64,000 bases of DNA, taken from assembly GCF_024171895.1 (NCBI RefSeq), contig NZ_JAMTCQ010000009.1, positions 409,318 through 473,317 on the forward strand. Reading direction: 5' to 3'. This document shows, piece by piece, positions 18,672-35,255 of this stretch; the first letter of the stretch is position 1; each line of letters begins with the position of its first letter. A program made the translations under genes and the position numbers. Under the pieces are notes generated by a model. The model made no database searches. It was not told the DNA's origin and was given only the letters and a program-made list of their open reading frames with translations. Source of the stretch: Prauserella halophila (lineage in GTDB: Bacteria; Actinomycetota; Actinomycetes; Mycobacteriales; Pseudonocardiaceae).

Positions 18672-19088
18672 ATGGAGGTCGTGGCCGAAGGTTACAACAC
18701 CTTCGAAACACATAAGTCCCCCCGAGGTGTGGTCAAGTACTTGGACTCGCCGCAAGATGTCATTTCGCTCATTCAGTCCGGCACCCTGACGGAGTACATA
18801 CTGTTGGTGCGGGGAGGTACGACGACCTTCCTGGCGCCCGCGCTCAGTACGGGCGCCATCGGCGTCATCACCATGTCTGGGGCGCCCGAGTCACACCTCG
18901 GCATCCTCTCGCGTGAGTTTCAGACACCATGTGTCATGACCGCCCATCTGACCAACAGCGATTCTCGTTACGAGGTCGGTAACTCCGATGAAGCGCACTT
19001 CGATGAGATCGCCAAGACCCTTGAGGGGATGACGGTCCAACTGGACTGCGCCGAGTCCGAGGTCGGCAAGGTAATTGCCATCAGCTGA
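18672..19088 (+). CDS. Free-standing phosphohistidine (swivelling) domain protein
   Basis: The 138-aa protein matches the mobile swivelling domain of PEP-utilising enzymes: VITMSGAPESHLGILSREFQTPCVM aligns with the GG-T/S-SHAAIxAR-x-GIP motif, placing His75 at the phosphorylated histidine. Preceding residues TTFLAPALSTGAIGVIT fit the domain's strand pattern. It carries no ATP-grasp or PEP domain. With the PPDK-like protein at 21315-23858 it resembles split dikinase systems such as phenylphosphate synthase. ATG 18672 has a perfect AAGGAGG site; upstream in-frame sequence lacks similarity. First gene of the BMC-linked module. Confidence 0.65.
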   Translation: MEVVAEGYNTFETHKSPRGVVKYLDSPQDVISLIQSGTLTEYILLVRGGTTTFLAPALSTGAIGVITMSGAPESHLGILSREFQTPCVMTAHLTNSDSRYEVGNSDEAHFDEIAKTLEGMTVQLDCAESEVGKVIAIS

Positions 19089-19124
19089 ACCATAGACCCG
19101 ACCGACGTCATGACAGGAGTTGCA

Positions 19125-20561
19125 ATGTCGATCAATACCACCGACGGGGCACAGGCGACTTACAAGCAACGGTACGAACCCGACGACGACGGCCTCCGGT
19201 TCCAGGACCTCGAGTTCGAAGGCAATTTCGAAGGTATGGAGCCGATTCACGACGGAATCATCGGCGACAAGGTGCTCCGCCAGCGCGCGAAGAGTAACGT
19301 CCTCGAACGGGTGTCTAAAGAGGACGCTCTGCGTGCGCAGTTCACCCTCGACGAGCTCAATGACCTCAACAACTACCTCTCGTGGAATGTGTGGGACGTT
19401 CTGGTCATGCGCGCCACGGAGGGTGTCTCCGGCATGATTCCCCGCCAGGAATACGAGACTTTGGCGTTCATGCATGAGTTCTACCGGTGGCCGGAGCTGC
19501 TGCGGATGACCACCGACGAGGTGGGTGCGCAGGGCGTGCTGGATATCGGTGCGCAGTCGCGCAGCGAGATCGGAACCAAGGTCAACTGCGTACACGACTG
19601 GTGCATCGGAGCGGTCGGCTTCGGTATGGGCCGGTGCGGGCTGCTCGCACTGGAAGCGATCCAGCCCAGCGACTATGTCGAAGAAAGCAACGAGATCCTC
19701 AAGTTCATGCAGCGAGTCCTGTGGGGCAAGCGACAGGATGGTTACATCCTCAACTCCCAGGATCGCTACCGGGCCCGCATCCACGATCAAAGTCTCATCG
19801 ACGACATCGTGGGCCAGCTCGAAGATCTCGAGCCGTCCAGTCCCAAACACGAGGCGTTCACGCACTTCAACGCCTCTGCCGAGCTCCTGGCGTTCCTGGA
19901 CCACTTCGATTGTCGGCTCGGTCTCGGGGACACCGGTCCGTACGAGCTGCCGAACGGCAACCTGCTGATCCTGCGCGACCTTTTCGTCAACGAGGAGGAG
20001 TTCCACTGGAGTGACGTGTGTGAGGACGCGGGGCTGCCGCACTGCTACACGGTGGCGCTGGTGATCGATCCGCAGGAGATGGGCTTGGAGGAGATTCGTA
20101 TTAATGACATCTCCACCACGTTCACCAGGCCGAAGAACTATGTGCCGCACATCGTCGCCGGTGCCGTGTTCAGCCGGGAAAAGTGGAACACCCCGATGGG
20201 TGAGGTCCGGCCGATCAAGATCGACGACCTCGGCGACCACCTTGGGCGGATTCAGCAGGCGACGTTGAAGATGTACCGCAAGTTCTCGCGGATGTCGCGG
20301 CGCGACCTGATTTGGGGAGGGCAGTATGTCTACTACGTGGACATGATTCTTCCCCACCTGCGGCGTGCGGGCACTTATGAGAAGGCGTGCCGGGACTACC
20401 AGCTGTGGGAAGTGGATCAGCGCATCGCGAACTACTACTACGAGATTCAGAAACGCGGGTTCGTGCAGGAGACCGCGCCGAACAAGATCTTCTCCGGTAA
20501 GGGATACCTGCCTTTCCCGGAGGGCACGGACCTGCGCAGATCGAAGTACCGCTGGCTGTAG
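19125..20561 (+). CDS. Unrecognised 478-aa protein of the BMC signature module
   Basis: I do not recognise this family. The 478-aa soluble protein has no membrane helix or signal peptide. Notable are a Cys/His cluster CVHDWC (Cys155, His157, Cys160) followed by GFGMGRC (Cys171), later Cys263, and EEEFHWSDVCEDAGLPHC (His294, Cys299, His306, Cys307), which could bind a metal. The C-terminal third is rich in Tyr and Trp (YVYYVDM, IANYYYEIQKRGF). It starts 36 bp after the swivelling-domain gene with a GGAG site 7 nt before ATG 19125. Its place between two dikinase-type components suggests the substrate-binding or substrate-converting subunit. Confidence 0.7.
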   Translation: MSINTTDGAQATYKQRYEPDDDGLRFQDLEFEGNFEGMEPIHDGIIGDKVLRQRAKSNVLERVSKEDALRAQFTLDELNDLNNYLSWNVWDVLVMRATEGVSGMIPRQEYETLAFMHEFYRWPELLRMTTDEVGAQGVLDIGAQSRSEIGTKVNCVHDWCIGAVGFGMGRCGLLALEAIQPSDYVEESNEILKFMQRVLWGKRQDGYILNSQDRYRARIHDQSLIDDIVGQLEDLEPSSPKHEAFTHFNASAELLAFLDHFDCRLGLGDTGPYELPNGNLLILRDLFVNEEEFHWSDVCEDAGLPHCYTVALVIDPQEMGLEEIRINDISTTFTRPKNYVPHIVAGAVFSREKWNTPMGEVRPIKIDDLGDHLGRIQQATLKMYRKFSRMSRRDLIWGGQYVYYVDMILPHLRRAGTYEKACRDYQLWEVDQRIANYYYEIQKRGFVQETAPNKIFSGKGYLPFPEGTDLRRSKYRWL

Positions 20562-20688
20562 CGGTCACGGCAGGGCGCACCACCTCGGCCACGGCGGAGT
20601 GGTTCGAGGTGGTTGCGCCTGTGCCGCGGCCGTCGGAAGTTGACCGCCATGGCCGCCACGATCACGGCCGGCGACACGGAGGGTGACC

Positions 20689-21309
20689 ATGACAGTAGCA
20701 GTGCTGGAGAAACAACTTTACGACGTTCTCAACGCGGTCGTCCTCAAGAAGATGGCTGATATTTCTGCGATCTCCGAGGCGACCGCACGTGATGACGAGG
20801 ACGTCAAGACGGCGATGGAAACGTTGGGTGAACGCAGCCTCGTGGTCATGGTCGGCGAGTCGGCCATGCCGACCGACGAAGCGGTGGCCGCGTTGGTGAC
20901 GGCGGCGGCGAAGCACTACGACGAGGTACGGCAGGATACCGTGATCGCGCAGGTGGCCGACAAGTTCGAGGCCGTCAACCAGCGGTTTCTGGAGGCCATG
21001 TCTGCATGGCAGCAGGTTGATGTCGGTGGCAGGAAGGTCGCCAACGACCATCAGGACTCGTCCTATGACGCGAAGATCATCGACAAGATGGACAAGCTGG
21101 TGAGCCGGCTTAACAGACAACTCGAAGTATTGGCTGAACGCGATCCGAGGTTCGGGACCTACTCGACCCGATTCGACCGAGCCATGTGCCTCGTCGAGGG
21201 CGGCGAGATCGACTATGTGTCGTCTCCGACGTTGGACTCGTTGCACAACATCTGGTTCGAGTTCCACGAAGATCTGTTGCGCACACTCGGCCGCGCACGT
21301 AAGGAGTGA
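20689..21309 (+). CDS. Unrecognised 206-aa helical protein of the BMC signature module
   Basis: The 206-aa protein has an N-terminal segment resembling a small winged helix (LNAVVLKKMADISAISEATARDDEDVKTAMETLGERSLVVMV), followed by a long helical region and a C-terminal helix ending HNIWFEFHEDLLRTLGRARKE. I do not know the family. A GGAGGG site precedes ATG 20689. Its stop overlaps the region where the PPDK-like gene begins, so the two are probably translated together. It may be a regulatory or structural partner of the PPDK-like enzyme; a DNA-binding role is possible but less likely from context. Confidence 0.65.
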   Translation: MTVAVLEKQLYDVLNAVVLKKMADISAISEATARDDEDVKTAMETLGERSLVVMVGESAMPTDEAVAALVTAAAKHYDEVRQDTVIAQVADKFEAVNQRFLEAMSAWQQVDVGGRKVANDHQDSSYDAKIIDKMDKLVSRLNRQLEVLAERDPRFGTYSTRFDRAMCLVEGGEIDYVSSPTLDSLHNIWFEFHEDLLRTLGRARKE

Positions 21310-21314
21310 GGCGA

Positions 21315-23858
21315 GTGCAGCAGGACGGTACTTACACGATCGCATTCGACGACCCGGGCGAGTACGACCGCGACATGCTGGGTGGCAAGGGTTTCGGTCT
21401 GGTCGAGATGACCCGCAACGGACTGCGTGTGCCGCCGGGGTGCGTGGTGTCCACTCACGCCTGCCGCCATTATCTGAATGAGGGCGGCCTTCCCGCGAGT
21501 CTTGCCGAGGAGGTACTCGAACGGCTTGCGCAGCTGGAGCGGCGGACCGGCAAGACCTTCGGCACCGGCCCCGAGCCGCTGTTGCTGTCGGTACGATCCG
21601 GCGCGCCGATCTCCATGCCAGGGATGATGGATACCATTCTCAACGTCGGCCTGGGGCGCTCGGCTGCAATAGCCTTGGCCGACGCGACTGGCGACACTCG
21701 GTTCATGGCGGATGTGTTGTTCCGCTTTCACTGTATGTACTCCGAGACCGTGCTCGGCGGCCTCGACGTGCCCGAGCGCGCGGAGTTCGACGAGGTGTTC
21801 GCCGAGCTCGGCACCGACTCGGATGCGGGCACGGTTTACGACAAGGTGTGGCAGTGGTGCCAGGATCGGGTGGTCGAGGATGTGGGCGAAGCGGTACCCG
21901 AGGAGCCACGGCAGCAGTTGCTCGGCGCGGTCGAGGCCGTGTTCCGGTCCTGGAATACCCGGCGAGCCGTGACCTACCGGGATCTGCACGCTATTCCGCA
22001 CGACTTGGGTACGGCCGTGGTCGTACAGTCGATGGTGTTCGGCAATCTCGGTGCCGACTCCGGATCCGGGGTGGCGTTCACGCGCAACCCCGTGACCGGT
22101 GAGCCCGGATTGTACGGGGAGTTTCTCAGCGGGAGCCAGGGTGAGGACGTGGTCGCCGGCGTCCGTACTCCGCTGCCGGTACAACAGATGGCCGAGACGA
22201 TGCCAGCGGTCTACGAGGAGCTGGCAGCCGTTTGCGCAAGGCTTGAGAGCACTCACAACGACGTGATGGACATCGAGTTCACCGTCGAGCATTCGCATCT
22301 CTACTTGCTGCAGGTGCGTGCGGCCAAGCGCACGGCCCAGGCCGCATTACGGATCGCCGCGGACTTTGTGGACGAAGGGATCCACTCGCCGGGCCAGGCG
22401 CTGCAAGCGGTGACCGCCGAACACATCCGGCACGTGCAACGGCCTGGTTTCGCGCCCGACGAGGTCGCCCAGGCCCGGGACGATGGGCGTCTGCTGACCA
22501 CGGGTGTGGGTGCGGCACCGGGTCAGGTCTCGGGCCGGTTGACCTTCGATCCCAGCCTGGCCGAGGAACGCGCGAAGGGTGGTGAGCGAGTCATCCTGGT
22601 CCGGCACGTCACCAGCCCGACCGACCTGCACGGCATGATCGCTGCTGCGGGCACCGTCACGGCGACGGGAGGATCCACCAGCCATGCCGCGGTGGTCGCG
22701 CGGGCCCTGGGCAGTACGTGTGTCGTCGGGTGCTCGGCGTTGGAGGTGGACGAGCAGGCAAGCACTGTGCGGGTTGGTGAGCGTGTGCTGCGAGATGGTG
22801 AGCCGGTCTCCATCGACGGCGGCACCGGCGAGGTGTTCACCGGGGAACTGTCCACCACCGAGCCGGCCGAGGAGCATACCCGGCTGGGCGAGTTGCTGAC
22901 CCACGCGCACTCGTCGGCTGATGTCGACGTGCTCGCCAAGGTGACCACCCCGGAGCAGGCTCGTCGGGCACTGGCGAAAGGGGCTAGCGGGATCGTCGTC
23001 GGTGTGGACGACGTGCTCGCCGCGGCCGGGCTGCTGGCCGAGGTGTCCAAGACGCTACGCGGCGGCGGTGGTCGCCTGGATACGGCACGGCTGGAAAGCG
23101 TGCTGGTCGAACAGTTCAGCGCACTGTTGGCGGCCTGCCCCGACGTCGAGGTGGGCGTGCGGGCACTCGACGTGCACGCCGACGAACTGGCCGAGGTACT
23201 CGATTCCACCCAAGCCTTCGTCGAACATCCCCAGCTGGCGCTGCCGCTGGGTGAACCTGAGCTGATCAAGGCACAGATCCGTGCGCTCGCGACCGCCGCG
23301 GCGACGGTGGACGGCTCCACCACCCCGTATCTGGTGGTGCGGAACCTGACGGATCCGGCCGAAGCCGCGGCGCTGCGAGCCACCCGGGACGAACTCGACG
23401 AGTCGGACCGGCTCGTCGTGGGGGCTTACGTGACCAGTCCTCGCGGGGCGCTGCTGGCCTCGGAGATCAGCGCACACAGTGAGATGCTGTGGCTGGAAAT
23501 GCGAGTAATGCAGGCCACGATGTTCGGTATTGCCCCGCGTCACCTGCTCGCGCGTGAGCCCTTGGAAGGCTATGTGCACTCCGGACTCCTCGGCACGGAT
23601 CCCCGGCAGCAGATCGACGAGTCAGTAGCACCGCTGCTGGACAGCGTTGCCGAAGCGCACGCGAACCACCCACAGTGTCCGGCCGGGGTCCGGCTGTCCG
23701 CGGCGGTGTCCGAGCCGGTGGCCGCGACCCTGTACTCCCACGGGTTTCGCCGGTTCTCCGTCGATCTCGATGAACTCGCGCCATGTGTGCTGGCCTTGGG
23801 GAAAGCCGCCTTCGCGGAGAGCGGAACACGTCGGGAGCAGGCGACGAATGGAGCGTAG
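21315..23858 (+). CDS. Pyruvate-phosphate-dikinase-like phosphotransferase with degenerate PEP domain
   Basis: The 847-aa protein has a PPDK-type ATP-grasp domain (GGKGFGLVEMTRNGLRVPPG, LLLSVRSGAPISMPGMMDTILNVGL, GSGVAFTRNPVTGE) and a swivelling domain with TATGGSTSHAAVVAR, catalytic His at residue 457. PPDK makes PEP from pyruvate, ATP and phosphate. In this protein the C-terminal TIM barrel has lost key elements: the LCRTEHMF strand reads IVVGVDDVL and the CGEHGG active-site Cys motif is absent. So the phosphohistidine probably serves another acceptor. GTG 21315 lies 8 nt after AAGGAG; GTG 21306 is an alternative. The next gene is a BMC shell protein 2 bp away. Confidence 0.85.
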   Translation: MQQDGTYTIAFDDPGEYDRDMLGGKGFGLVEMTRNGLRVPPGCVVSTHACRHYLNEGGLPASLAEEVLERLAQLERRTGKTFGTGPEPLLLSVRSGAPISMPGMMDTILNVGLGRSAAIALADATGDTRFMADVLFRFHCMYSETVLGGLDVPERAEFDEVFAELGTDSDAGTVYDKVWQWCQDRVVEDVGEAVPEEPRQQLLGAVEAVFRSWNTRRAVTYRDLHAIPHDLGTAVVVQSMVFGNLGADSGSGVAFTRNPVTGEPGLYGEFLSGSQGEDVVAGVRTPLPVQQMAETMPAVYEELAAVCARLESTHNDVMDIEFTVEHSHLYLLQVRAAKRTAQAALRIAADFVDEGIHSPGQALQAVTAEHIRHVQRPGFAPDEVAQARDDGRLLTTGVGAAPGQVSGRLTFDPSLAEERAKGGERVILVRHVTSPTDLHGMIAAAGTVTATGGSTSHAAVVARALGSTCVVGCSALEVDEQASTVRVGERVLRDGEPVSIDGGTGEVFTGELSTTEPAEEHTRLGELLTHAHSSADVDVLAKVTTPEQARRALAKGASGIVVGVDDVLAAAGLLAEVSKTLRGGGGRLDTARLESVLVEQFSALLAACPDVEVGVRALDVHADELAEVLDSTQAFVEHPQLALPLGEPELIKAQIRALATAAATVDGSTTPYLVVRNLTDPAEAAALRATRDELDESDRLVVGAYVTSPRGALLASEISAHSEMLWLEMRVMQATMFGIAPRHLLAREPLEGYVHSGLLGTDPRQQIDESVAPLLDSVAEAHANHPQCPAGVRLSAAVSEPVAATLYSHGFRRFSVDLDELAPCVLALGKAAFAESGTRREQATNGA

Positions 23859-23860
23859 TG

Positions 23861-24160
23861 ATGGCTGATATGGGACGAGCGGCCGGTTTCGTGGAGACGC
23901 GGGGCCTGGTCGGAGCGATCGAGGCAGGCGACGCGATGGTCAAGGCGGCCAACGTGGCGCTGGAAGGCTACCGGACGCTGCGCAACGGGCAGGTGACTAC
24001 CGTGGTGCGCGGCGATGTGGGTGCCGTGCAAGCCGCGGTCGACGCGGGATCGGTCGCCGCCCGGGCGGTCGGAGAATTGTTGCACGCGCACGTGATCCCA
24101 CGCCCGGACGGTGGCACAGACGACATGTTGACCAATGCAGTCACCGTCCGATCCCGGTGA
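23861..24160 (+). CDS. BMC-H hexameric shell protein 1
   Basis: The 99-aa protein is one BMC domain (Pfam BMC, CsoS1/PduA fold): [31 protein letters not shown], then [38 protein letters not shown]. These form hexamers that tile the facets of a protein compartment. It follows the PPDK-like gene by 2 bp with a GGAG site, which ties that enzyme module to a microcompartment. The second BMC-H at 27433-27753 is similar along the domain. Confidence 0.95.
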   Translation: MADMGRAAGFVETRGLVGAIEAGDAMVKAANVALEGYRTLRNGQVTTVVRGDVGAVQAAVDAGSVAARAVGELLHAHVIPRPDGGTDDMLTNAVTVRSR

Positions 24161-24960: not shown

Positions 24961-25914
24961 TCACCGGAGGATGCGGCGTACGGCGTCGAGTACCTCTGGT
25001 CGCGCCGCGGGCTGGTTCACCGCCTGCACCGCCTGCGAGGTAGTGGATGGCCTCGGTTGACTCCGCTCGCGGCGCCGTGCGCGCCGGATCTCCACCGTCC
25101 GGGCGAGTGTCTCGGCGAGTGCGGGTGCCGCCTCGGAGGTCCCCGCGGGTGCGGGTGCCGCCTCGGAGGTTTCCGCGGGTGCGGCGGTGTTCGGGGTGCA
25201 GCGGTCATGGCAGGTGGGGCCTACCAGGCCGAGCAGTTCCTGAGGCCAGATGGCGACGAAGTCGGCTCCCGCCTCGCGCAGTTCGGCGCTGGTGTGCATT
25301 CCCCAGGCGACGCCGACAGCTCGGATTCCGGCCTGCCGGGCGGCGACGATGTCGCCGACCGTGTCGGTCACCAGGGCAGTGTCGCCGATCGCTGAGCAGT
25401 CGCAGGCCTCGTCGTAGGCCGGCTGGCAGCGCCGGCCGACCCCGCGCGCGGCGTCGGCGAGGAAGCGGTGCACACCCTGGGTTTTGTCGGTTTCGGTGTC
25501 GCCGCCGAAGACGTGCCCGAAACAATACGCGAGGTCGTTGTCGAGCAGGATCCGGCGAATCACACCGGTGGAGTTGGAGGACAGTACGGCCAGGGTGCAG
25601 TGCGGGGCCAGGCCCTTCACCACATCGGCCATGCCGGGGATCAGTGGCGGCGAGTAGTCGGATTCGAGCGCCTGCTGGAACGCTCGTTCCACCTCATCCG
25701 CCGTGGCCCGGTCACGACAGAGCGCCCGCAGGCTTTCGAAGAAGTTGTTCTGGAACAGCTCGTAGAACTCCTCCGCGGTGTCCACACCGAGACCGAACCG
25801 CCTGCTGATCGGGCGGAATACCTCCCACGATGCCAGCCGGGTCTGCACCAGCGTGCCGTCCAGGTCGAAGATCACCGCGGTGCAACTCGGCGTACACATA
25901 GGATCAGAGTTCAC
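24961..25914 (-). CDS. HAD-family phosphatase with probable encapsulation peptide
   Basis: Residues 1-225 are a haloacid-dehalogenase hydrolase of the phosphoglycolate-phosphatase type: VIFDLDGTLVQTR with nucleophile Asp18 and Asp20, VLSSNSTG, and IGDTALVTDTVGDIVAARQAG. After it comes a Pro/Ala-rich linker with an internal duplication (ETSEAAPAPAGTSEAAPA), an Arg-rich stretch, and a terminal helix RPEVLDAVRRILR. A linker plus a short amphipathic C-terminal helix is how BMC cargo is tagged, so this phosphatase is probably inside the shell. GTG 25914 overlaps the upstream gene by 11 nt; ATG 25899 is an alternative. Substrate unknown. Confidence 0.8.
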   Translation of the reverse strand: MNSDPMCTPSCTAVIFDLDGTLVQTRLASWEVFRPISRRFGLGVDTAEEFYELFQNNFFESLRALCRDRATADEVERAFQQALESDYSPPLIPGMADVVKGLAPHCTLAVLSSNSTGVIRRILLDNDLAYCFGHVFGGDTETDKTQGVHRFLADAARGVGRRCQPAYDEACDCSAIGDTALVTDTVGDIVAARQAGIRAVGVAWGMHTSAELREAGADFVAIWPQELLGLVGPTCHDRCTPNTAAPAETSEAAPAPAGTSEAAPALAETLARTVEIRRARRRERSQPRPSTTSQAVQAVNQPAARPEVLDAVRRILR

Positions 25915-26881
25915 TGTAGATCTTGGTCAAGGCCTGCGGACCGATAAAGTCCTGCAGCTCGCCCCATCCGCGCTCCTCGCCGCAGCGCCACTCGGCCAGC
26001 ACGTTGAATCCCACCGTGCCCGGTCCGGCCTGCCAGGGGAAGCTGGTGCGGCCGAAGCCCTGCAGCTGCCAGCTTCGGCCCAGGCTGTCGGTGAGGTCGA
26101 GCTCCACAGCCTTGGCGTAGTAGCCCTGGCGAATGGTACGTCCGGTACCCGCCGAGAGCCCGTACATGTTGCCGTGGTCGATGAGGTAGCCGTGTTGCAG
26201 GGTCAGGCTGGTCGGCGCGTCGGGTCCCCCGTCGGCGCTGAAGGCGAAGATGCCGTGGAAGGCGAGATCCCGAGAGAAGTGCGCGTGCAGCCAGCTCATC
26301 GTGCCGCTCTGGTATTCGGCGCGGGGGCCCCAGCTGTGGTCCATTGTCGAGACGCAGTCGATCGGGTACTTCTTTCCGCGCACCTCGATCTCACCCTCGA
26401 AGTGCCCGGTCTGGTCGAAGTGGCCGTTGTAGGCCTCGTCCCAGGCGAATTCGTCGCCGGATTTCGCGGCCACGATCGGATCCTGGTGCGGGTCGTGAAT
26501 GTCGAAGGCGTCCATCAACGCGGTATAGCGAAAGTTCAGCGCGATCCCGTCCCCGTTGTCGAACTCGACGTCCCAGACCTTGTTGGGCTCGGGGGAGACG
26601 ACCTTGAGCCCGTTGTTGAGCTGATAGTCGCGCAGACTGGCCCCCTTGGGGATGGGCAGGTGATGCTGTGCGTCCCAATAGTCGGCTTGCCAGGGGGATT
26701 CCACGAACCGTGAGTTGATCGCCACGGTGGAGATCACCACACCCGCATTCATGCGGAAAAGTGCGTACACACCGACGTTGAGTGGGACCTCCGGGACGTA
26801 GAACCCGAAGAAGTTGGTCTCCGCCCAGGTCGGGTCGTCGCTGGTGGGGGTGTGAAAGTCCGCGTCCTCCGGATTGATCAT
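25904..26881 (-). CDS. DUF7064/DUF7065-like lipocalin-fold protein
   Basis: The 325-aa protein resembles the DUF7064/7065 group (tocopherol-cyclase or carotenoid-hydratase-like beta-barrels), with WAETNFFGFYVPEVPLNVGVYALFRMNAGVV at the start and CVSTMDHSWGPRAE in the centre. The MDHSWG motif is typical. No enzyme activity is established for close relatives as far as I know. It is divergent from the shell-protein operon at 27115 and overlaps the HAD gene, so the pair is probably co-expressed. ATG 26881 has an AAGGAG site. Confidence 0.65.
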   Translation of the reverse strand: MINPEDADFHTPTSDDPTWAETNFFGFYVPEVPLNVGVYALFRMNAGVVISTVAINSRFVESPWQADYWDAQHHLPIPKGASLRDYQLNNGLKVVSPEPNKVWDVEFDNGDGIALNFRYTALMDAFDIHDPHQDPIVAAKSGDEFAWDEAYNGHFDQTGHFEGEIEVRGKKYPIDCVSTMDHSWGPRAEYQSGTMSWLHAHFSRDLAFHGIFAFSADGGPDAPTSLTLQHGYLIDHGNMYGLSAGTGRTIRQGYYAKAVELDLTDSLGRSWQLQGFGRTSFPWQAGPGTVGFNVLAEWRCGEERGWGELQDFIGPQALTKIYSEL

Positions 26882-27833: not shown

Positions 27834-29219
27834 GTGGTGACTGCGGGCTTGGATTCCGATCTTGCCGCGTTGGCGGATGTGCGTGCTCAGGTGGCGGCGA
27901 CGAAGCGGGCCTATGAGGCTATCGAGGGTGCCGATCAGGAATGGCTGGACGGAATCGTTCGTGCCATGGCCAAAGCGGGCGCCGCCGCTGTGGGTGAACT
28001 GGCCAGGCTGGCCGCGGACGAGACCGGGTACGGCGTGTACGAGCACAAGATGGTCAAGGACCGTTACAACACGGAGTTCGTCGCCGACTGGATGTTGCAG
28101 CGGCGTGCGGTCGGGGTGTTGTGGGTGGACGAGCCGAACAAGGTGACCGCGATCGGCTCTCCGATGGGAATGATCGCGGCGATCATTCCGGTGACCAATC
28201 CGACGTCGACGGTGCTGTTCAAGAGCCTCGCCGCGGTGAAGGCGGGTAATGCCGTGGTGCACGCCCCGCACCCGCGGGCGGCGCGCTGCTCGGCACGTGC
28301 GGCGGAGATCATGGCGGAGGCCGCTGTTGATGCGGGCGCTCCCGAGGACCTCGTGTCGTGCCTGCACGCTCCGACGCTGGATGCGAGTCGGGAACTGATG
28401 CGCCACCCGGACGTGCGGTTGATCCTGGCGACCGGCGGCCCCGGCATGGTTGCGGCGGCCTACTCGAGCGGCAAGCCGACTATCGCGGTCGGTGCGGGCA
28501 ATGTTCCCGCCTACGTCGACGGCAGTGTCGCCGACGTCGGAGAAGCCGCGACCATGATCGTCACTTCGAAGTCGTTCGACAACGGAACGGCCTGCGTCGC
28601 CGAGCAGTCCGTCGTGGTTGCCGAGGCGGTCGCGGACCAGTTCGAAGCGGAGTTGACCAGGGCGGGAGTAGCCTGGCTCACGCCTGAACAGCAGCAGGCT
28701 CTGTGCCGGGTGCTGTTCGACGAACGTGGTGGTATGCGGCCTGCCGCAGTCGGACAGTCGGCGACCCGGTTGGCTGAGTTGGCTGGATTCGCGGTCCCGG
28801 CCGAGACGAAGGTCCTGGCCGCGAGCTTGAGCCGGGTGCACGAAGACGAGTTGCTCTCCCGCGAGATTCTGGGCCCGGTGCTGTCGGTCTACCGCGAGCC
28901 GGACGCGCACGCCGGGTGGCGGCGCTGCCGCGAGATCCTGGCGTTGGGCGGCGAAGGGCACACGCTCGCGGTGCACGCGACCGACTCGGACGTGATCGCC
29001 GAGTTCGGATCGCAGCCCGCTGGCCGGATCGTGATCAACACGCCGGCGTTGTTCGGCGGGATGGGGTACTCGGCCAACGTCGATCCGTCGTTCCAGCTCG
29101 GGACCGGAACGTGGAGTGGCTCGATCTGTTCGGACAACGTCACCCCGTTGCACCTGGTCAATATCAAACGGATCGCCCATGAAGTGCGGCCGTGGCGCGG
29201 AGTGCTCGAGCGGTCATGA
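27834..29219 (+). CDS. CoA-acylating aldehyde dehydrogenase (EutE/PduP type)
   Basis: The 461-aa enzyme has the EutE/PduP features: IAAIIPVTNPTSTVLFKSLAAVKAGNAVV, ILATGGPGMVAAAYSSGKPTIAVGAGNVP, and the catalytic Cys in SKSFDNGTACVAEQSVVV. It converts an aldehyde plus CoA and NAD+ to acyl-CoA and NADH, the core reaction of aldehyde-processing metabolosomes. Typical EutE enzymes carry an N-terminal encapsulation helix; here residues 1-25 (SDLAALADVRAQVAATKRAYEAI) are helical but part of the fold, so targeting is unclear. GTG 27834 or 27837 follows GGGGAAGG. Confidence 0.9.
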   Translation: MVTAGLDSDLAALADVRAQVAATKRAYEAIEGADQEWLDGIVRAMAKAGAAAVGELARLAADETGYGVYEHKMVKDRYNTEFVADWMLQRRAVGVLWVDEPNKVTAIGSPMGMIAAIIPVTNPTSTVLFKSLAAVKAGNAVVHAPHPRAARCSARAAEIMAEAAVDAGAPEDLVSCLHAPTLDASRELMRHPDVRLILATGGPGMVAAAYSSGKPTIAVGAGNVPAYVDGSVADVGEAATMIVTSKSFDNGTACVAEQSVVVAEAVADQFEAELTRAGVAWLTPEQQQALCRVLFDERGGMRPAAVGQSATRLAELAGFAVPAETKVLAASLSRVHEDELLSREILGPVLSVYREPDAHAGWRRCREILALGGEGHTLAVHATDSDVIAEFGSQPAGRIVINTPALFGGMGYSANVDPSFQLGTGTWSGSICSDNVTPLHLVNIKRIAHEVRPWRGVLERS

Positions 29220-30064
29220 CTGTGATCGAGATGAGCGACGCGACACCGCCGGAGGCATCGGGCGGCCAGGTGGCCGTGTCACTGCGACGCGCCCATTCCC
29301 GGATCGGCCTGCAGGCGGAGTCCTGGTCGGGACAGCTCCATACCGGGGTGGATCTGGGCACGGCCACGTGCGTGCTCACGGTCGTCGATGACACCGGCGA
29401 AGCTGTGTGGGTCGACACCAACGCGACGGCTGCCCTGCGCGACGGCGTCGTGGTGGACTTCACGGCCGCCGTGGCCGCGGTGCGGACGTTGAAGCGCGAC
29501 GCCGAAGCCGCACTCGGGGTCGAGCTGGAGCACGCTGCCACGGCCTACCCGCCTTGTGTGGGCGAGGCCGACAGCCGGGCGTGCCGGTTTGTCCTGGAAA
29601 GCGCTGGATTCGACCAGATCGCCATGCTCGACGAGGTGTCGGCGGCGAATCGGACACTGGGAATCCGTGACGGCGCCGTGGTCGACGTCGGCGGCGGTTC
29701 GACCGGAGTCGGCGTGTTCAGCGGGGGCGAGCTGCGCGCCCTCGATGACCGGGCAGGTGGCGGTTACCACCTGGACCTCATCGTGGCCGGCGCCATGGGG
29801 ATTTCGGTGCCCGAAGCCGAGCGCCTCAAGCATGAATCCCCGGAGACGGTGACCACCGTGCTCCGACCCGGCATCGAACGAGTCGCGGAGTCGATCCGCG
29901 ACCTCACGACCGGCTGGGAGGCCCTCGATGTGCACCTGGCCGGCGGTGCGCTGATGCTGCCCGGCATGGACAGCACGCTGGCCGCCCGGCTGGGCCGCAG
30001 TGTGCACGCCTATCCCCACGCCCTGTTGATCACCCCACTCGGAATCGCGAGGTCTGCCCCGTGA
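29216..30064 (+). CDS. EutJ-like Hsp70/actin-fold chaperone
   Basis: The 282-aa protein has actin/Hsp70-fold motifs: LHTGVDLGTATCVLTVVDDTGE (phosphate-1), VVDVGGGSTGVGVFSGGEL (phosphate-2) and a C-terminal LAGGALMLPGMDSTLA (adenosine motif). EutJ is the related protein of ethanolamine BMCs, whose client is not firmly known. No B12 enzyme needing reactivation is encoded here, so its client must be something else. The ATG at 29216 overlaps the aldehyde dehydrogenase stop (ATGA). Confidence 0.85.
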   Translation: MTVIEMSDATPPEASGGQVAVSLRRAHSRIGLQAESWSGQLHTGVDLGTATCVLTVVDDTGEAVWVDTNATAALRDGVVVDFTAAVAAVRTLKRDAEAALGVELEHAATAYPPCVGEADSRACRFVLESAGFDQIAMLDEVSAANRTLGIRDGAVVDVGGGSTGVGVFSGGELRALDDRAGGGYHLDLIVAGAMGISVPEAERLKHESPETVTTVLRPGIERVAESIRDLTTGWEALDVHLAGGALMLPGMDSTLAARLGRSVHAYPHALLITPLGIARSAP

Positions 30065-30693
30065 GTGCTGCGACGCTGCGCACCTATGCCTTCATCGACC
30101 GGATGCAGCCGCAATGCGCGGCCCACATCGCCGCGACCAGCCCGGGCGACCCCCCGCTAGCGGGCATGTCGGAGCTGTTCGTCGAAATGGCGCCCGGCAA
30201 CGAGGTGTTCCGCGCCGCCGACGTCGCGCTCAAGGCCGCCGGAGTTCGGCCGGCGCTACAGGTTATCGAACGCGAGTTCGGGCTGCTGGAAATTCACTCC
30301 GAGCAGCAAGCCGAAGTCCTCGCCGCAGGTGAGGCACTGCTCGGCGAACTCGGGTTGAAAGAGCTGGACCGGATCAAACCGACTATCGCCTCCACCCAAT
30401 TCATCACCAACGTGCACGGATACCAAGCACAACTGCTCAACAAGTGGCGCAAGGGCGCCCTGCTGTTGCCGGGCGCCAGCCTGTTCGTGCTCGAGGTCGC
30501 CCCGGCCGCCTACATCTCGCTGGCAGCGAACGAAGCGGAGAAAGCCGCAGGCGTCGATATCATCGAGATCCGCGCCGTCGGCCGATTCGGCCGGTTGTTC
30601 CTGTCCGGAAGTGAAAGCGAGGTCGGCACTGCCCGCGACGCCGCGGTAGCCGCACTCGAAGAGCTCGACGGATCGGAGGAGGCTCGACGATGA
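30061..30693 (+). CDS. BMC-T tandem-domain shell protein
   Basis: The 210-aa protein has two BMC domains. The first spans about residues 1-105 (LRTYAFIDRMQPQCAAHIAATSPGDPPLAGMSELFVEMAPGNEVFRAADVALKAAGVRP) and the second about 106-205 (ELDRIKPTIASTQFITNVHGYQAQLLNK, ASLFVLEVAPAAYISLAANEAEKAAGVDIIEIRAVGRFGRLFLSG). Such proteins form trimers with a gated central pore for larger metabolites. GTG 30061 overlaps the EutJ-like stop; its own stop overlaps the next start (ATGA). Confidence 0.9.
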   Translation: MSAATLRTYAFIDRMQPQCAAHIAATSPGDPPLAGMSELFVEMAPGNEVFRAADVALKAAGVRPALQVIEREFGLLEIHSEQQAEVLAAGEALLGELGLKELDRIKPTIASTQFITNVHGYQAQLLNKWRKGALLLPGASLFVLEVAPAAYISLAANEAEKAAGVDIIEIRAVGRFGRLFLSGSESEVGTARDAAVAALEELDGSEEARR

Positions 30694-31988
30694 GGGTGCA
30701 CGGAGCAGCCGAGATCGACCGCGCCATCGAAGAAGCAGGCGCAGCGTCACCGACGCTGCAGGTAGCCAGCGAAGATCTTGTCACCCCGCTCGCGCGGGAT
30801 AAGGCCGCCGATCACGGGGTCCAGATCATCACCGAGGCTGCCGCAGCCCCCGCCGCGCCCACACAGCCCATCGCCCGGGGTGGCACGCCACCCCGGGCGG
30901 TCCCACCGGGCAACTCCGCCGCATCCGAGCCGATGCGTCCGCCGTCGCCGGCGTTGTATCGCCGGGGCGCACCTCTGCACCCCGATGTGCGGCCCGCGGC
31001 CGGACCCGCCGCGTCACGGCCGGACACTCCCGCTCGGGTCGTGGTCATCGGCGCGGGACACGTCGGAATGATCACGGCGCAGCGAGTGGCCGAAGCCGAC
31101 GTGGTCGACGAGGTGGTGTTGGTCGACGTCGCCGATGGTCTGGCCGCAGGCGTTGCGCTCGACCTCACGCACACGTCCGGACTGCTCGGCTTTGGCACGC
31201 GGGTCCGTGGGGTGAGCAGCTTGGAAGAGGCGGGCCCCGCGGACTATGTGGTCATCACCGCTGGTAAGCCCCGCCAACCGGGCATGAGCCGCGCCGATCT
31301 GGTCTCGACCAACGCCGCCATCGTGGGCGATCTGGCCTCTCGCGCCGCCCGGACCGCGCCGGACTGCGTACTCGTCGTGGTCACCAACCCGCTCGACGAG
31401 ATGACCTACCATGCGTGGCGCAGTTCCGGGCTGCCGTCCGAGCGGGTCGTGGGTATGGCAGGCATGCTCGACGCCGCCCGCTTCCAGGCGTTGATCGGGT
31501 TGACCGGCGCGGCACAGCCGAGGCGCGTCGAGGGTGTGGCATTGGGCAGCCACGGTGACGAGATGGTCGTCCCCCTCTCGCAGGCCACCGCCGGCGGACG
31601 CCCGGTGACCGAAAGCCTCGATCAGGACACCCTCACCGGCATCGTGGACCGGACCCGGACATCCGGTGGCGAGGTGGTCGGCCTGTTGAAATCCGGCAGC
31701 GCGTTCATGGCACCCGGAACCGCGGCGGCTCACATGGTCCTGGCCATGATTCGCGACAGCGGCGCCGTTCTACCGGTCACTGCCCGGGTGCGCGGTCACT
31801 ACGGTATCGCCGACGGTTACGTCGGCGTGCCGGTACGACTCGGACGTCACGGGGTGCGAGACATCGTCGAACTCGCCCTCGCCGAGGAGGAACGAGCGGC
31901 GTTGTGCGACGCCGCCGAACGGATCAACGAGCGGGTGCAGGTGCTCGACACGTTGCCGACACGCGCCACCGGCGCGATGGTGTCGTGA
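30690..31988 (+). CDS. Malate/lactate dehydrogenase-like enzyme with N-terminal BMC-type extension
   Basis: Residues about 112-432 are an LDH/MDH enzyme: ARVVVIGAGHVGMITAQRV (NAD-binding), TAGKPRQPGMSRADLV (malate-type Arg pair), VVTNPLDEM, and the catalytic His in GSHGDEMVVP. Residues 1-50 form a separate segment containing LVTPLARDKAADHGVQI, a motif seen at the ends of several BMC-associated proteins, joined by a Pro/Ala-rich linker (50-110). I infer targeting to the compartment and NAD+ recycling there. Ordinary MDHs are about 310-330 aa. ATG 30690 overlaps the BMC-T stop. Confidence 0.85.
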   Translation: MRVHGAAEIDRAIEEAGAASPTLQVASEDLVTPLARDKAADHGVQIITEAAAAPAAPTQPIARGGTPPRAVPPGNSAASEPMRPPSPALYRRGAPLHPDVRPAAGPAASRPDTPARVVVIGAGHVGMITAQRVAEADVVDEVVLVDVADGLAAGVALDLTHTSGLLGFGTRVRGVSSLEEAGPADYVVITAGKPRQPGMSRADLVSTNAAIVGDLASRAARTAPDCVLVVVTNPLDEMTYHAWRSSGLPSERVVGMAGMLDAARFQALIGLTGAAQPRRVEGVALGSHGDEMVVPLSQATAGGRPVTESLDQDTLTGIVDRTRTSGGEVVGLLKSGSAFMAPGTAAAHMVLAMIRDSGAVLPVTARVRGHYGIADGYVGVPVRLGRHGVRDIVELALAEEERAALCDAAERINERVQVLDTLPTRATGAMVS

Positions 31989-33028
31989 CCACCATGAGGG
32001 CAGTGGTGTATCGCGAGCCGGGCCGGGTGGAAGTGGCCACGGTTCCCGAGCCGACGGTGCTCGAGCCCGAGGACGTAGTGGTTGGAGTCACTTGCGCGGC
32101 GGTATGCGGCACTGACCTGCATCTGGTTGCTGACGGGCACGGATTGCCCCCAGGAACCGTGCTCGGTCATGAGTACACCGGAACCGTACTCGCCACCGGG
32201 ACTTCGGTGCGCACCGTCGCGGTAGGCGACCGGGTTGCCGGGGCGGACTTCACCGCCTGCGGGCGGTGCTGGTGGTGCCGCCGCGGCGATCACTGGGAGT
32301 GTGCGCACCGGCAGTTCCTCGGCACCGGGGGCGCCTTCGGCCCTGCGTTGCCGGGAGCCCAGGCCGAACGGGTCCGCGTGCCGCACGCGGACAACACCCT
32401 GCGTCCCTTGCCTTACGGGGTGAGCGACGAGGCCGCGGTGTTACTCGGCGACGTACTACCTACCGGCTATGCCGCGATCCAACGTGCGGACCTGCGTCCC
32501 GGCGACACGGTCGCGGTCGTCGGAGGCGGACCGGTCGGCCAACTCGCCAGTCTCGCGGCCCAAGCCTGTGGGGCGGGCCCCGTCGTGGTCGTCGAACCCG
32601 TCGCCGACCGGCGGGCCCTGGCCGCCGACAACGGCGCGCTGGCGGTAGGACCGGACGAGGCGAGCGAACTGCTCGCCTCGTTGACCCACGGCCGTGGCGC
32701 GGACGCCGTGGTCGACGCCTTGGGTGCCCCGCGAGGCTTGGACGCCGCGATGGCGCTGGTGCGCCGCCGCGGCACGGTGTGCTCGGTCGGTGTCCCCTCG
32801 GTCGAGCACTGGTCGATGCCGGTTCGCGACGCTTTCGTCAACGAGGTGACGGTTCGGTTCGCCATCGGCGATCTCATGCGCGACGGCGACGCGCTCACCG
32901 CGCTGCTGGAAACCGGTGTACTGGATCCGACCGTGGTGCTGACCGAGACCGTCGACATGGCCCGGGCCCCCGATGGTTATCAGGCGATGGCCGAGCGACG
33001 TACCCTCAAAGTGCTCGTCACGATGTAA
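31985..33028 (+). CDS. Zinc-dependent alcohol dehydrogenase (MDR family)
   Basis: The 347-aa enzyme has catalytic-zinc residues in VCGTDLHL and GHEYTGTV, a structural-zinc Cys set (CGRCWWCRRGDHWEC), and a Rossmann motif VAVVGGGPVGQLASLAAQACGA. It interconverts an alcohol and an aldehyde or ketone with NAD(P). In aldehyde-forming BMCs such enzymes recycle NAD+ by reducing part of the aldehyde. No clear encapsulation helix is visible. GTG 31985 overlaps the MDH-like stop (GTGA); ATG 31994 is possible. Confidence 0.88.
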   Translation: MTTMRAVVYREPGRVEVATVPEPTVLEPEDVVVGVTCAAVCGTDLHLVADGHGLPPGTVLGHEYTGTVLATGTSVRTVAVGDRVAGADFTACGRCWWCRRGDHWECAHRQFLGTGGAFGPALPGAQAERVRVPHADNTLRPLPYGVSDEAAVLLGDVLPTGYAAIQRADLRPGDTVAVVGGGPVGQLASLAAQACGAGPVVVVEPVADRRALAADNGALAVGPDEASELLASLTHGRGADAVVDALGAPRGLDAAMALVRRRGTVCSVGVPSVEHWSMPVRDAFVNEVTVRFAIGDLMRDGDALTALLETGVLDPTVVLTETVDMARAPDGYQAMAERRTLKVLVTM

Positions 33029-33050
33029 CCCAGGTCACTGGGAGGGCCCT

Positions 33051-35255
33051 ATGGTAGCGCTCGCCAACCAGACGATCGACGACACGAATTCCCACGACGG
33101 CTCGGCTCCCGACGCCTTGCGACGCTTGCTGTGTACCTGTCCCGAGTCGGTTCTCACCGGGGCCGGTGAACTCGCCGACATTCTCAGCCAAGGTGGCAAG
33201 GTCAGCGTGCTGGGCTACCGCGGCGATCATTGGTTGCTACTCGCCGGTAACGAAGCCGTCTGCGACGAGGAGGACCTGCGCGACATTGATCCGACAGCCC
33301 AGGACACCGGAAGTGTCGGGAGTCTGGTCTTCGGACCGGGTGTTGCGCTCGCGTTCGCCGAGCAGGACACCATCAACCGGTTCGGCGTGGAGCAGTTGCG
33401 GCAGGCATGCGTATGGCTGGCCCAGGCTCAGCGTGCCGACCTCTCCCACGAGCGGATGCACGACGCCACCGAAGAAGCCGATAGTCAACGCGCGGTAGCC
33501 GACCAGATTCTCACCGTCCGTGATGTGGATCAAGTGCTGCTGTCGATCACCAATCAGACCTTGGGGATGCTGCAAGCCGACATCTGCGGTGTGTTTCTGC
33601 GCGAAGACGACGAACTGCAGATGCGCTGTTGTACCGGGCACCGCGTCGTCACCACCGAACGGCTACGGATGCGCCGTGGCCAGGGTGTCGCGGGGCTGGT
33701 ATTCGATACCGGGGAGGTCGCCAAGGTCGACAGCTACCTCGACGATCGCACGATCAGTCAGGACTTCATGTCGCTGGCCGAGCAGGAGCAGACACGCTCA
33801 GCTCTGGCCGTACCGCTGCGCGCGCACGGCGAGCTGATCGGGGTGCTCGAGGTATGGCGGCGCCGACACTCCGTGTTCACCGCCCGCGACGTGCGCCGGC
33901 TCGCTTCGCTGAGCGATCTGGCCACCATTGCGATCGAGAACGCGCACCTGTATGAGCAGCAGCGGCGAGCCAACAGCGAGCTGCGGGAGACCCACGCGGA
34001 CCTGCAACACAAACTGAGCCTGTTGCGCCGGTCCTCGGCGTTGCAACGCTCACTGATTCAGGCAGTGCTGGACGATACCGCCACGCCGACGGCGATCGCC
34101 CAACTCGTCGGTCAGGAGATGCAGTGCCAGGTGGCGGTGCTGGCCGACGACTACCAGATCGAGGTTGTGTACCCGCCGGACTTCGCTGTGACCGGGCTGG
34201 CTGAACACATCACCAAGTCCAACGCGGACGCGACAACCTCCGCACGCCGAGAACTCGTGGGCGGGATCAGGTGCTGGGTCGCAGGCGTACGCGCTGGGGG
34301 TAACTCGTTCGGAGCCGTGTGCCTGATCGGCGGCGACGAGTCGGATGAGGTGATGGAAGCGGCCTGCGGCCAAGCGGCGATGGCCAGTTCGTTGGCGCGG
34401 GCCGAACAACACGCCGCCAGCAGAGCCCGTGCGGAGGCATTCGACCAGATCCTGTGGGACCTGCTCAGCGGGCCCGAGCAGCACCGCATGGCGGCCCGAA
34501 CTCGCGCCCAGCACATGGGTGTTCGCCTCAAAGGCCCTCACCGGATCATCTACGGTCAGTTCGACAACCTCACTGCACTCGCGGCACGCCGCGGCTGGGA
34601 TACCTCGGGCTGTGAGCGAGCGCGGCGAGACACCCTGGATGCGATCCGAACGGCACACGAAACCCCGGCTCTGCAACTCGCCGGCATGCGCGGCGACTGC
34701 ATCGTAGCGATCGCGGCGGTCGACGACCGCGCCCTCGTGCGGGAATTGATGGACACGGTGAACACAGCAGCGGGCGCCGTGTCCGGAGGTGAGCTTGCCC
34801 TGTCGTGGGGAGTGAGCACAGTGCGTGAGAACCCCTGTGACTATCCGAGCGCCTTCAACGAGGCCAAGACAGCCCTGGCTGCCGCCCGACGGCTGGCAAC
34901 AGGCGGCGTGACCCTCTACGACGAACTCGGCATCGTCCGGCTCCTGCTCGGCTCACACGAAGATCCCGACTACCACGCCTTCATCTCCGAAGTCACCCAG
35001 CCGATAATCGACTACGACCGACGACACGACGGTGCACTCATGGCGACGTTGCGCGGCTTTTTCGACGCCGACTGCTCCCAGAAGGAAGCGGCCAAGCGCA
35101 TGTATGTGCACCACAAGACACTCAGCTACCGGCTGGAACGCATTAAGGACATCGCCGGCCTGGATCTCGCCCGACACGCCGACCGCATGCGCGCCGACCT
35201 CGCCCTGCGGCTACTGGACGTGACCGAGACCATGGACAACCCGAACACGGTCTGA
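33051..35255 (+). CDS. GAF-domain PucR/CdaR-type transcriptional regulator
   Basis: The 734-aa protein has an N-terminal region of unknown type (1-130), a GAF sensor (about 150-310, GMLQADICGVFLREDDELQMRCCTGH, RSALAVPLRAHGELIGVLEVW), a coiled coil (ANSELRETHADLQHKLSLL), a central GGDEF-like PucR domain, and a C-terminal HTH (GFFDADCSQKEAAKRMYVHHKTLSYRLERIKDIAGLDL). Proteins of this build activate catabolic operons on ligand binding. As the last gene of the BMC operon it is probably its regulator. ATG 33051 has GGGAGG 7 nt upstream. Confidence 0.88.
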   Translation: MVALANQTIDDTNSHDGSAPDALRRLLCTCPESVLTGAGELADILSQGGKVSVLGYRGDHWLLLAGNEAVCDEEDLRDIDPTAQDTGSVGSLVFGPGVALAFAEQDTINRFGVEQLRQACVWLAQAQRADLSHERMHDATEEADSQRAVADQILTVRDVDQVLLSITNQTLGMLQADICGVFLREDDELQMRCCTGHRVVTTERLRMRRGQGVAGLVFDTGEVAKVDSYLDDRTISQDFMSLAEQEQTRSALAVPLRAHGELIGVLEVWRRRHSVFTARDVRRLASLSDLATIAIENAHLYEQQRRANSELRETHADLQHKLSLLRRSSALQRSLIQAVLDDTATPTAIAQLVGQEMQCQVAVLADDYQIEVVYPPDFAVTGLAEHITKSNADATTSARRELVGGIRCWVAGVRAGGNSFGAVCLIGGDESDEVMEAACGQAAMASSLARAEQHAASRARAEAFDQILWDLLSGPEQHRMAARTRAQHMGVRLKGPHRIIYGQFDNLTALAARRGWDTSGCERARRDTLDAIRTAHETPALQLAGMRGDCIVAIAAVDDRALVRELMDTVNTAAGAVSGGELALSWGVSTVRENPCDYPSAFNEAKTALAAARRLATGGVTLYDELGIVRLLLGSHEDPDYHAFISEVTQPIIDYDRRHDGALMATLRGFFDADCSQKEAAKRMYVHHKTLSYRLERIKDIAGLDLARHADRMRADLALRLLDVTETMDNPNTV

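Follow-up and report, generated by a model that had tools for sequence, protein, structure and literature searches.

Gene Content and Organization of the Locus

The window analyzed here, a stretch of 64,000 nucleotides of Prauserella halophila DNA, harbors at positions 18672–35255 a bacterial microcompartment (BMC) locus in which a four-gene phosphotransfer module occupies the position of the signature enzyme. The comparative evidence just tilts toward the locus encoding a metabolosome that degrades a C5 hemiterpenoid alcohol, the likeliest being 2-methyl-3-buten-2-ol (MBO), by the steps proposed below. The genes listed in a preliminary description of this DNA, i.e., two BMC-H genes, one BMC-P, one BMC-T, a EutJ-like gene, and those for a CoA-acylating aldehyde dehydrogenase (AldDh), a lactate/malate dehydrogenase (MDH)-like enzyme, and a zinc alcohol dehydrogenase (ADH), were all verified with Pfam and NCBIfam models. 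The module was likewise found as described, with ATP-grasp and phosphohistidine domains and with BMC-H1 directly after it, the gap between module gene 4 and the probable BMC-H1 start being 2 bases. The 5.05 Mb genome contains three PF00936 matches, all inside this locus, and with PF03319 these provide the hexamer, trimer, and pentamer genes of a metabolosome shell; the CoA-acylating AldDh and the ADH expected of a metabolosome are both present. Phosphotransacylase (PTAC), which belongs to the complete metabolosome core, was not found among the locus genes scanned, the remaining genome not having been searched for it.

Two features had been overlooked earlier. Between BMC-H1 and BMC-P lies a minus-strand pair encoding a predicted phosphatase of the HAD family and a DUF7065/7064 protein, and the remnant of an acyl-CoA ligase gene stands immediately upstream of the module. 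The remnant is 64% identical to residues 34–159 of the module-adjacent ligase of Pseudonocardia asaccharolytica (L029). The features are collected in Table 1, in which start codons were inferred from alignments of homologues.

Table 1. Features of the compartment locus, in window coordinates.
Feature	Position	Strand	Support
AMP-binding acyl-CoA ligase remnant, ~126 of 521 residues	17919..18293	+	PF00501 1.6e-19
Module gene 1, PHis, free-standing phosphohistidine (PEP-utiliser mobile) domain	18672..19088	+	PF00391 2.4e-7
Module gene 2, X483, unnamed family; candidate substrate-binding/transferase subunit	19110 or 19125..20561	+	without family match
Module gene 3, Y208, 206 aa	20689..21309	+	no significant Pfam match
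Module gene 4, PPDK-like ATP-grasp + phosphohistidine protein, degenerate C-terminal barrel	21306..23858	+	PPDK_N, PF00391, weak PEP-utilizers_C
BMC-H1 shell protein	23861..24160	+	PF00936 3.1e-26
HAD-family predicted phosphatase, C-terminal linker and tail, predicted cargo	24961..25899	-	PF13419 2.9e-14
DUF7065/DUF7064 protein, candidate rearrangement enzyme	25904..26881	-	PF23212, PF23213
BMC-P shell vertex protein	27115..27408	+	PF03319 1.4e-23
BMC-H2 shell protein	27433..27753	+	PF00936 1.1e-28
CoA-acylating AldDh	27837..29219	+	TIGR02518 474 bits, under cut-off 620
EutJ/FtsA/MreB-like protein	29192..30064	+	PF06723 2.9e-9, PF14450 2.1e-7; relative annotated eutJ
BMC-T shell protein, CcmP/HO-5816/CsoS1D trimer kin	30061..30693	+	PF00936; PDB matches
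Lactate/malate dehydrogenase-like enzyme with N-terminal extension	30690..31988	+	PF00056/PF02866 at residues 116–413
Zinc alcohol dehydrogenase	31994..33028	+	PF08240, PF00107
GAF + PucR-type helix-turn-helix regulator	32973..35255	+	PF01590, PF13556

Conservation of the Module With Shell Genes

Gene-order conservation was checked against plasmid pRB98 of Rhodococcus oxybenzonivorans, which carries the same genes in rearranged order. The shell, enzyme, and module proteins of the two loci are 56–86% identical and the regulators 49%, and owing to this conservation the cluster is not a product of chance. A scan of 84,980 species returned 118 relatives of X483, of which 80 were kept; 66 showed at least 65.7% (up to 80%) identity to the R. 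oxybenzonivorans protein and 14 showed at most 41%. In the close clade, 50 of the 66 loci have a shell gene within the stretch of DNA stored for the locus. Among the other 16, four (L036, L058, L073, and L087) belong to genomes with BMC genes elsewhere, ten genomes have none, and two short contigs (L034 and L086) were left out of the genome-wide BMC check. None of the 14 distant loci has a shell gene, and one of the seven such genomes searched has a divergent BMC pair. The separation of module homologues from shell genes, which the preliminary description had named as the observation that would speak against it, was thus seen for the distant relatives and not for the close clade. Hosts of the shell-bearing loci include Pseudonocardia, Amycolatopsis, Actinomycetospora, Rhodococcus, Gordonia, Nocardia, and Microbacterium, as well as Bradyrhizobium, Variovorax, an Ectothiorhodospiraceae bacterium, and an Eremiobacterota bin.

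A survey of 249 genomes of the family of the window, its own genome included, detected BMC-T (at least 79% identity) in 12 genomes and X483 (at least 76%) in the same 12, with none discordant. In these, the two genes share a contig, with starts 8.9–10.9 kb apart (Fisher p 1e-20 for co-occurrence over the 249 genomes, shared ancestry being ignored). Nine further genomes have a distant X483 only (at most 41%) and no BMC-T. One further genome has a BMC-T of 56% identity and no X483; its locus (L134, G041:C9:259000-278999) contains AldDh (52%) and MDH (46%) with no match to the module and, judged from this gene content, represents a sister type of metabolosome whose front end differs. Both X483 and BMC-T are absent from six of six congeners, which suggests that the locus was probably acquired.

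It is exceedingly improbable that chance or a recent transfer placed the shell locus beside the module, with no joint function. This reading gains something from the ten genomes with a close X483 and no BMC gene found, of which the metagenome bins L072, L077, and L084 may be incomplete, and from a shell locus of Methylibium PM1 that persists with a broken X483; it is opposed by the co-occurrence in 12 of 12 genomes at the identities given, by shell linkage across several phyla despite rearranged gene order, and by a phosphatase tail that follows the presence of the shell, as described below.

The Phosphotransfer Module

The candidate histidine of PHis, which lies at the place matching a phosphohistidine, was conserved in 69 of 69 aligned loci, and the phosphohistidine of the pyruvate phosphate dikinase (PPDK)-like protein in 61 of 61. 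The latter protein scored 614 bits against TIGR01828, below the cut-off of 843 for full-length PPDK, and passed PRK05878, a 534-position NCBIfam PPDK model that lacks the barrel (539.5 bits against a cut-off of 456). Its match to solved PPDK (453 bits over residues 13–585) is strong to residue 585 only. The RTE motif is replaced, and neither an RTE nor a CGE motif is found in the window and R. oxybenzonivorans copies. By its sequence, the pyruvate-binding barrel of the protein is degenerate. Conserved histidines combined with a degenerate barrel fit a phosphate relay to a non-pyruvate acceptor, for which X483 could possibly provide the acceptor site. No Pfam, NCBIfam, or PDB match above chance was obtained for X483, nor a Pfam or NCBIfam family for Y208. 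A Y208 match is present in 50 of 52 shell-bearing loci, and its homologue in Methylibium is annotated as MarR family.

Divergent X483 and PPDK-like genes were also observed in Rhodococcus opacus B4, R. pyridinivorans, Novosphingobium, and an actinobacterium (L024, L026, L027, and L016), some of these loci adjoining phosphatase, P450, or acyl-CoA carboxylase genes. In R. opacus B4, a 794-aa gene annotated as a phosphoenolpyruvate (PEP)-utilizing enzyme spans the X483 match too. Such sets probably encode kinases that act on other alcohols. The set DUF7064-HAD-PHis-X483 also occurs in a metagenome bin that bears the title Klebsiella pneumoniae (L077); BMC genes were not detected in this bin, which we suspect to be mislabelled or mixed.

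A Phosphatase Tail Associated With the Shell

The C-terminal end of the HAD protein was measured in 57 loci with the R. oxybenzonivorans protein as reference. The protein is 304–389 residues long in the 45 loci with shell genes in the stretch. In the 12 loci without them, its length is 220–270 residues, with the exception of L073 (360 residues), whose genome carries the shell genes on a different contig. Relative to the reference, the C-terminus differs by −30 to +68 residues in the 46 shell-bearing cases and by −87 to −46 in the 11 shell-free ones, with no overlap. All 46 shell-bearing cases hence have the tail and none of the 11 shell-free cases does, the shell-free HAD of Methylocella TVC being of intermediate length (270). 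The tail consists of a linker and a short amphipathic helix, the helix being judged by eye, and appears less helical in shell-bearing L078 and L081. No such separation by length was seen for PHis, X483, Y208, PPDK, or DUF7064. AldDh and MDH have no shell-free homologue for a comparison of tails, and ADH is likewise not comparable in this way.

These observations suggested that the HAD protein is probably encapsulated cargo, and its tail is read as an encapsulation peptide. Dephosphorylation would therefore likely take place inside the shell and phosphorylation outside it. The general logic of phosphorylation followed by dephosphorylation is considered fairly likely. An extra tyrosine phosphatase occurs in 14 close loci and SurE in four; the window has one phosphatase-like gene and some relatives have two. 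The adjacent DUF7065/7064 protein showed both PF23212 and PF23213 in 17 of 17 homologues, and the stretch STMDHSWG is invariant across the 17 sequences. The idea that DUF7064 might be a CrtC/AttH-like lipocalin was considered; no relatives of it were obtained in Pfam and PDB profile searches.

Shell Type and Other Enzymes of the Locus

The BMC-T protein matched the solved trimers CcmP (1e-60), HO-5816 (8.5e-59), and CsoS1D (5e-45). For AldDh, the best PDB match was the acetylating acetaldehyde dehydrogenase 5j78, and its candidate catalytic cysteine is kept in 47 of 47 cases. All 21 shell-bearing loci in which 1.7 kb of sequence is available past BMC-T contain the MDH-like gene. An N-terminal extension of ~115 aa on the MDH-like protein may be a cargo tag. 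The extension (30690–31037) matches a separate open reading frame of 128 aa in R. oxybenzonivorans (42%) and holds a helix-like stretch. In classic metabolosomes, ADH and AldDh form a balanced pair. Unlike that pair, both enzymes would be oxidative here, which may explain the MDH-like enzyme. An MDH-type NAD recycler has a published precedent in the PVM compartment, where it is a prediction (PMC4207490).

The preliminary description knew of no published BMC type with these genes; that none exists is probably wrong. As described in the part of Axen et al. (2014; PMC4207490) consulted, MIC1 has AldDH, a lactate/malate dehydrogenase, a zinc dehydrogenase, a hydrolase, a phosphatase, and an MreB-like protein, with no PTAC, no signature enzyme, and no function given. 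The shell and enzyme part of the window shares this gene set, including the PTAC-less core, the match being one to the description rather than to member sequences. Hence, the shell is probably of type MIC1, which is catalogued with no function assigned, and what is new is the signature module and the proposed function, absent from the MIC1 account, rather than the shell. The word "dikinase" does not occur in the main texts of Axen et al. (2014) and Sutter (2021), the latter main text also lacking "phosphoenolpyruvate," "Methylibium," and "kinase." In the passages of Sutter (2021) consulted, the trimers of MIC1/MIC2 (our reading of "MIC12") fall in another clade than the CcmP-like ones (MIC3, HO, SPU). 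As the best solved match of the window BMC-T is CcmP, MIC3 or another type remains a candidate.

Linkage to 3-Methylcrotonyl-CoA Degradation

The genes of the lower pathway were most completely seen in shell-free Pseudomonas NFACC02 (L091), in the series AldDh-ADH-ligase-DUF7064-HAD-PHis-X483-Y208-PPDK-PF13557 protein-MCCβ-methylglutaconyl-CoA hydratase-MCCα-HMG-CoA lyase, where MCC stands for 3-methylcrotonyl-CoA carboxylase and HMG for hydroxymethylglutaryl. No acyl-CoA dehydrogenase was matched in this series or in the 10.5 kb past the lyase; in a second MCC operon of the strain, an acyl-CoA dehydrogenase (40% identical to the query from L115) lies directly beside MCCβ. The L091 MCCβ scored 1065 bits against MCC 3u9r and 480 against geranyl-CoA carboxylase. 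MCC genes also flank the module in L022 and L067. In Endobacter, MCCβ (the only one of the genome), bioB, MCCα, MaoC, and a CoA transferase lie upstream of the module, with no acyl-CoA dehydrogenase match in the 4.5 kb before MCCβ, up to the contig end. In R. oxybenzonivorans, MCCβ, MCCα, and MaoC adjoin the shell genes, with no such match at 425–450 kb.

The genome of the window has two MCC sets. One (L115) includes an acyl-CoA dehydrogenase. The other (L116, G000:C6:299000-318999) is accompanied by a thiolase, an enoyl-CoA hydratase, a 3-oxoacid CoA-transferase, an HMG-CoA lyase, a GAF/PucR-like regulator, and an IS30 transposase, with no acyl-CoA dehydrogenase match in 20 kb. Each of six congeners has one MCCβ (E 1e-200 or better), as against two in the window genome. 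The linkage to MCC without an acyl-CoA dehydrogenase indicates that the pathway most likely enters at 3-methylcrotonyl-CoA, and a C5 endpoint of the pathway is quite probable.

In PDB comparisons, the carboxylases were nearer to MCC than to geranyl-CoA carboxylase, and propionyl enzymes other than chain 9tps did not score highly; AccD1 (4q0g) was taken to be an MCC. A C10 route through geranyl-CoA was considered and rejected, since the tested carboxylases have MCC scores about double those obtained with geranyl-CoA carboxylase. The NCBIfam name of the L091 hydratase is "gamma-carboxygeranoyl-CoA hydratase," which we take to be a former designation of the leucine-pathway enzyme. Another copy of it, 81% identical, lies in the NFACC02 operon with the acyl-CoA dehydrogenase, in agreement with the leucine-pathway identity. 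In 7 of 11 shell-free close loci, ADH, an NAD-type AldDh, and an acyl-CoA ligase stand beside the module; L067 has the AldDh only.

Candidate Substrate

MdpJ is reported to be a tertiary alcohol desaturase, as the title of a 2012 study by Schuster states. Homologues of MdpJ (57–62% identity) were found beside X483 in L065, which has shell genes, and in the shell-free loci L072 and L084. According to the part of PMC7600658 consulted, MdpJ makes MBO from tert-amyl alcohol. A possible isomerisation of MBO to prenol has been suggested for PM1, Aquincola, and Pseudomonas putida MB-1, the enzymes being described as uncharacterised at the time, and linalool isomerase carries out a comparable step as a single enzyme (passages of PMC4791888). 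Oxidation of prenol would yield 3-methylcrotonyl-CoA, which joins the MdpJ/MBO route to the linked lower pathway.

Methylibium PM1 is the one strain in this comparison with reported MBO metabolism. On its megaplasmid, the Rieske gene MPE_RS22205 and a PDR/VanB-type partner would, from function and neighbours, be mdpJ and mdpK; the table entries to which the pair was matched are Mpe_B0555/B0554 (in the part of PMC4517660 consulted). These putative mdpJ/mdpK genes are near a PPDK-like gene and a tyrosine-type phosphatase gene, with DUF7064, a divergent X483, PHis, and Y208 ~20 kb off. The same plasmid bears a shell locus at 443–458 kb that includes DUF7064, a tailed HAD, and PPDK. In its closest relative, L068 (84–97% identical), X483 and PHis are full-length. 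Taken together, we lean modestly toward MBO as the main substrate.

It is unlikely, by comparison, that the module directly phosphorylates a different C5 entry compound (prenol, isoprenol, or some further hemiterpene alcohol), with the same route from 3-methylcrotonyl-CoA onward. The kinase/phosphatase pair would then serve for trapping and shell import and not to isomerise a tertiary alcohol. The linkage to MCC and HMG-CoA lyase is independent of MBO, and 63 of the 66 close loci have no MdpJ-like gene in the stored stretch, so that the usual substrate must come from elsewhere. However, prenol can be oxidised by ADH unactivated, which would make an ATP-costly module and DUF7064 superfluous, and the linkage to MdpJ points to tertiary alcohols.

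Upstream of the locus, the window itself encodes a Rieske oxygenase of the vanillate-demethylase type (9066–10238); as an MdpJ it was ruled out, the identity being 27% over 118 residues only. Beside the locus, a minus-strand group at 36405–41991 encodes a nitrile hydratase beta N-terminal domain, a carbon-nitrogen hydrolase, an iron alcohol dehydrogenase, and an NAD aldehyde dehydrogenase, with a LysR regulator beside it, and is probably a nitrile-degradation cluster.

Proposed Mechanism

For MBO as substrate, the following course is proposed. A phosphate of ATP would first be transferred to the histidine of the PPDK-like protein, which together with PHis, X483, and Y208 would pass it to the tertiary allylic alcohol, the transfer presumably running between the two histidine domains. 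The tertiary phosphate would be converted to the primary allylic ester prenyl (dimethylallyl) phosphate by an allylic shift, probably on DUF7065/7064 or X483. The ester would cross the shell, and the tailed HAD phosphatase, whose status as cargo has strong comparative support, would free prenol inside. Zinc ADH would oxidise prenol to the reactive prenal and acylating AldDh would convert prenal to 3-methylcrotonyl-CoA, with NADH reoxidised by the MDH-like enzyme. MCC, methylglutaconyl-CoA hydratase, and HMG-CoA lyase, for which gene linkage was observed, would lead to acetoacetate and acetyl-CoA. The preliminary description had proposed that an unknown alcohol or ketone is phosphorylated and made into an aldehyde; an alcohol acted on via phosphorylation is still the best reading, and the ketone now belongs only to the rival reading given below.

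Several observations weigh against this scheme. MCC genes adjoin the module in only 3 of 69 loci. The hydratase of L116 is only 28% identical to that of L091, and chain 9tps, named a propionyl-CoA carboxylase, scores 787–851 bits against the carboxylases. ADH, AldDh, and ligase are all missing from three of the 11 shell-free loci (L072, L077, and L084). A full-length ligase (at least 61% identity) is kept in 8 of 52 shell-bearing loci, with weaker ligase homologues in six, although an acylating AldDh should make a ligase redundant. The three loci with MdpJ homologues have no PPDK match in the stored stretch, related proteins lying on other contigs of their genomes, and MdpJ is also listed as a tert-butyl alcohol hydroxylase (in a portion of PMC4517660). 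In the PM1 shell locus, X483 is cut to 104 residues (L135:24146-24762), PHis is degenerate, and no Y208 match was found; divergent copies of the X483 module (32–37% identity to R. oxybenzonivorans) lie ~27 kb away. The shell passage, the rearrangement, and the role of DUF7064 are proposals. Finally, the nearest solved relatives of AldDh are acetaldehyde enzymes, which leaves a C2 or C3 aldehyde possible.

The last point leads to a rival reading in which the phosphate acceptor of the module is a ketone or a different small alcohol and the aldehyde processed in the compartment is acetaldehyde or propionaldehyde, much like the EUT2 type, the link to MCC being incidental. The scarcity of adjacent MCC genes would agree with it, as would the normal reaction of PPDK, which phosphorylates an enolate. 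We nevertheless consider it rather improbable and keep it as a rival only, since the lower-pathway genes found in linkage belong to C5 degradation: MCC, methylglutaconyl-CoA hydratase, and HMG-CoA lyase stand in series after the module without an acyl-CoA dehydrogenase. Moreover, among seven genomes of the genus, a second MCCβ occurs only in the one bearing X483, and the locus genes scanned include no acetaldehyde-forming enzyme.

In its fullest form, which we put forward tentatively and at somewhat less than an even chance, the proposal would describe the first terpenoid metabolosome, built on a principle not known from any other compartment. Phosphorylation outside would both activate the tertiary allylic alcohol and charge it for selective entry, and the encapsulated phosphatase would free the volatile, toxic intermediate only inside the shell; X483 would represent a new kinase or isomerase family and supply the MBO-to-prenol step so far missing, and a function could be assigned to MIC1. 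If true, an orphan compartment type of actinobacteria, proteobacteria, and bins of other phyla would acquire a concrete function, and the missing degradation step would be filled with candidate genes within strains that can be grown in the laboratory. The scheme also points to an encapsulated phosphatase as a means of bringing substrates into microcompartments. Certain conifers of North America emit MBO (a portion of PMC7728719), which is also a metabolite of fuel-oxygenate degradation (a portion of PMC4791888), and the genes could thus serve as environmental markers.

Comparison With Known Systems

Phenylphosphate synthase of anaerobic phenol degradation likewise uses split ATP-grasp and phosphohistidine proteins to activate an inert hydroxyl compound, a design also seen in L121, and the module could be a similar kinase for phenol or another aromatic alcohol. 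A presumed alpha subunit (630 aa, PF00391 at the C-terminus), found near phenylphosphate carboxylase gamma, was located through PF09662 in 399 genomes, two of which had a match and one a match over the cut-off. Alignment of 23 X483 sequences with this one presumed subunit as a single-sequence template gave an hhalign probability of 0.1, i.e., no detectable homology; the phosphohistidine domain alone is weakly alike (34% over 58 residues). Neither a UbiD-type carboxylase nor a linked phenylphosphate carboxylase was seen among the annotated genes, though no search was aimed at one, and the lower-pathway linkage is C5 rather than aromatic. An aromatic substrate hence seems very improbable.

In the open-access literature searched, no account tying a microcompartment to 3-methylcrotonyl-CoA was found among the matches listed. 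The degradation of MBO and tert-amyl alcohol with MdpJ in Methylibium and Aquincola is related to the present system by the PM1 plasmid, which also bears the shell locus, and by a proposed first step from MBO to prenol; it differs in that the isomerising enzyme is reported as uncharacterised (in the part of PMC4791888 consulted). PPDK shares the ATP-grasp and phosphohistidine domains with the window protein, which differs by its degenerate barrel and its context in a four-gene module. The AAUM/RMM amino-alcohol compartment similarly places a phosphotransferase ahead of the aldehyde but differs in having another kinase family, an aminotransferase-type phospholyase, and another lower pathway.

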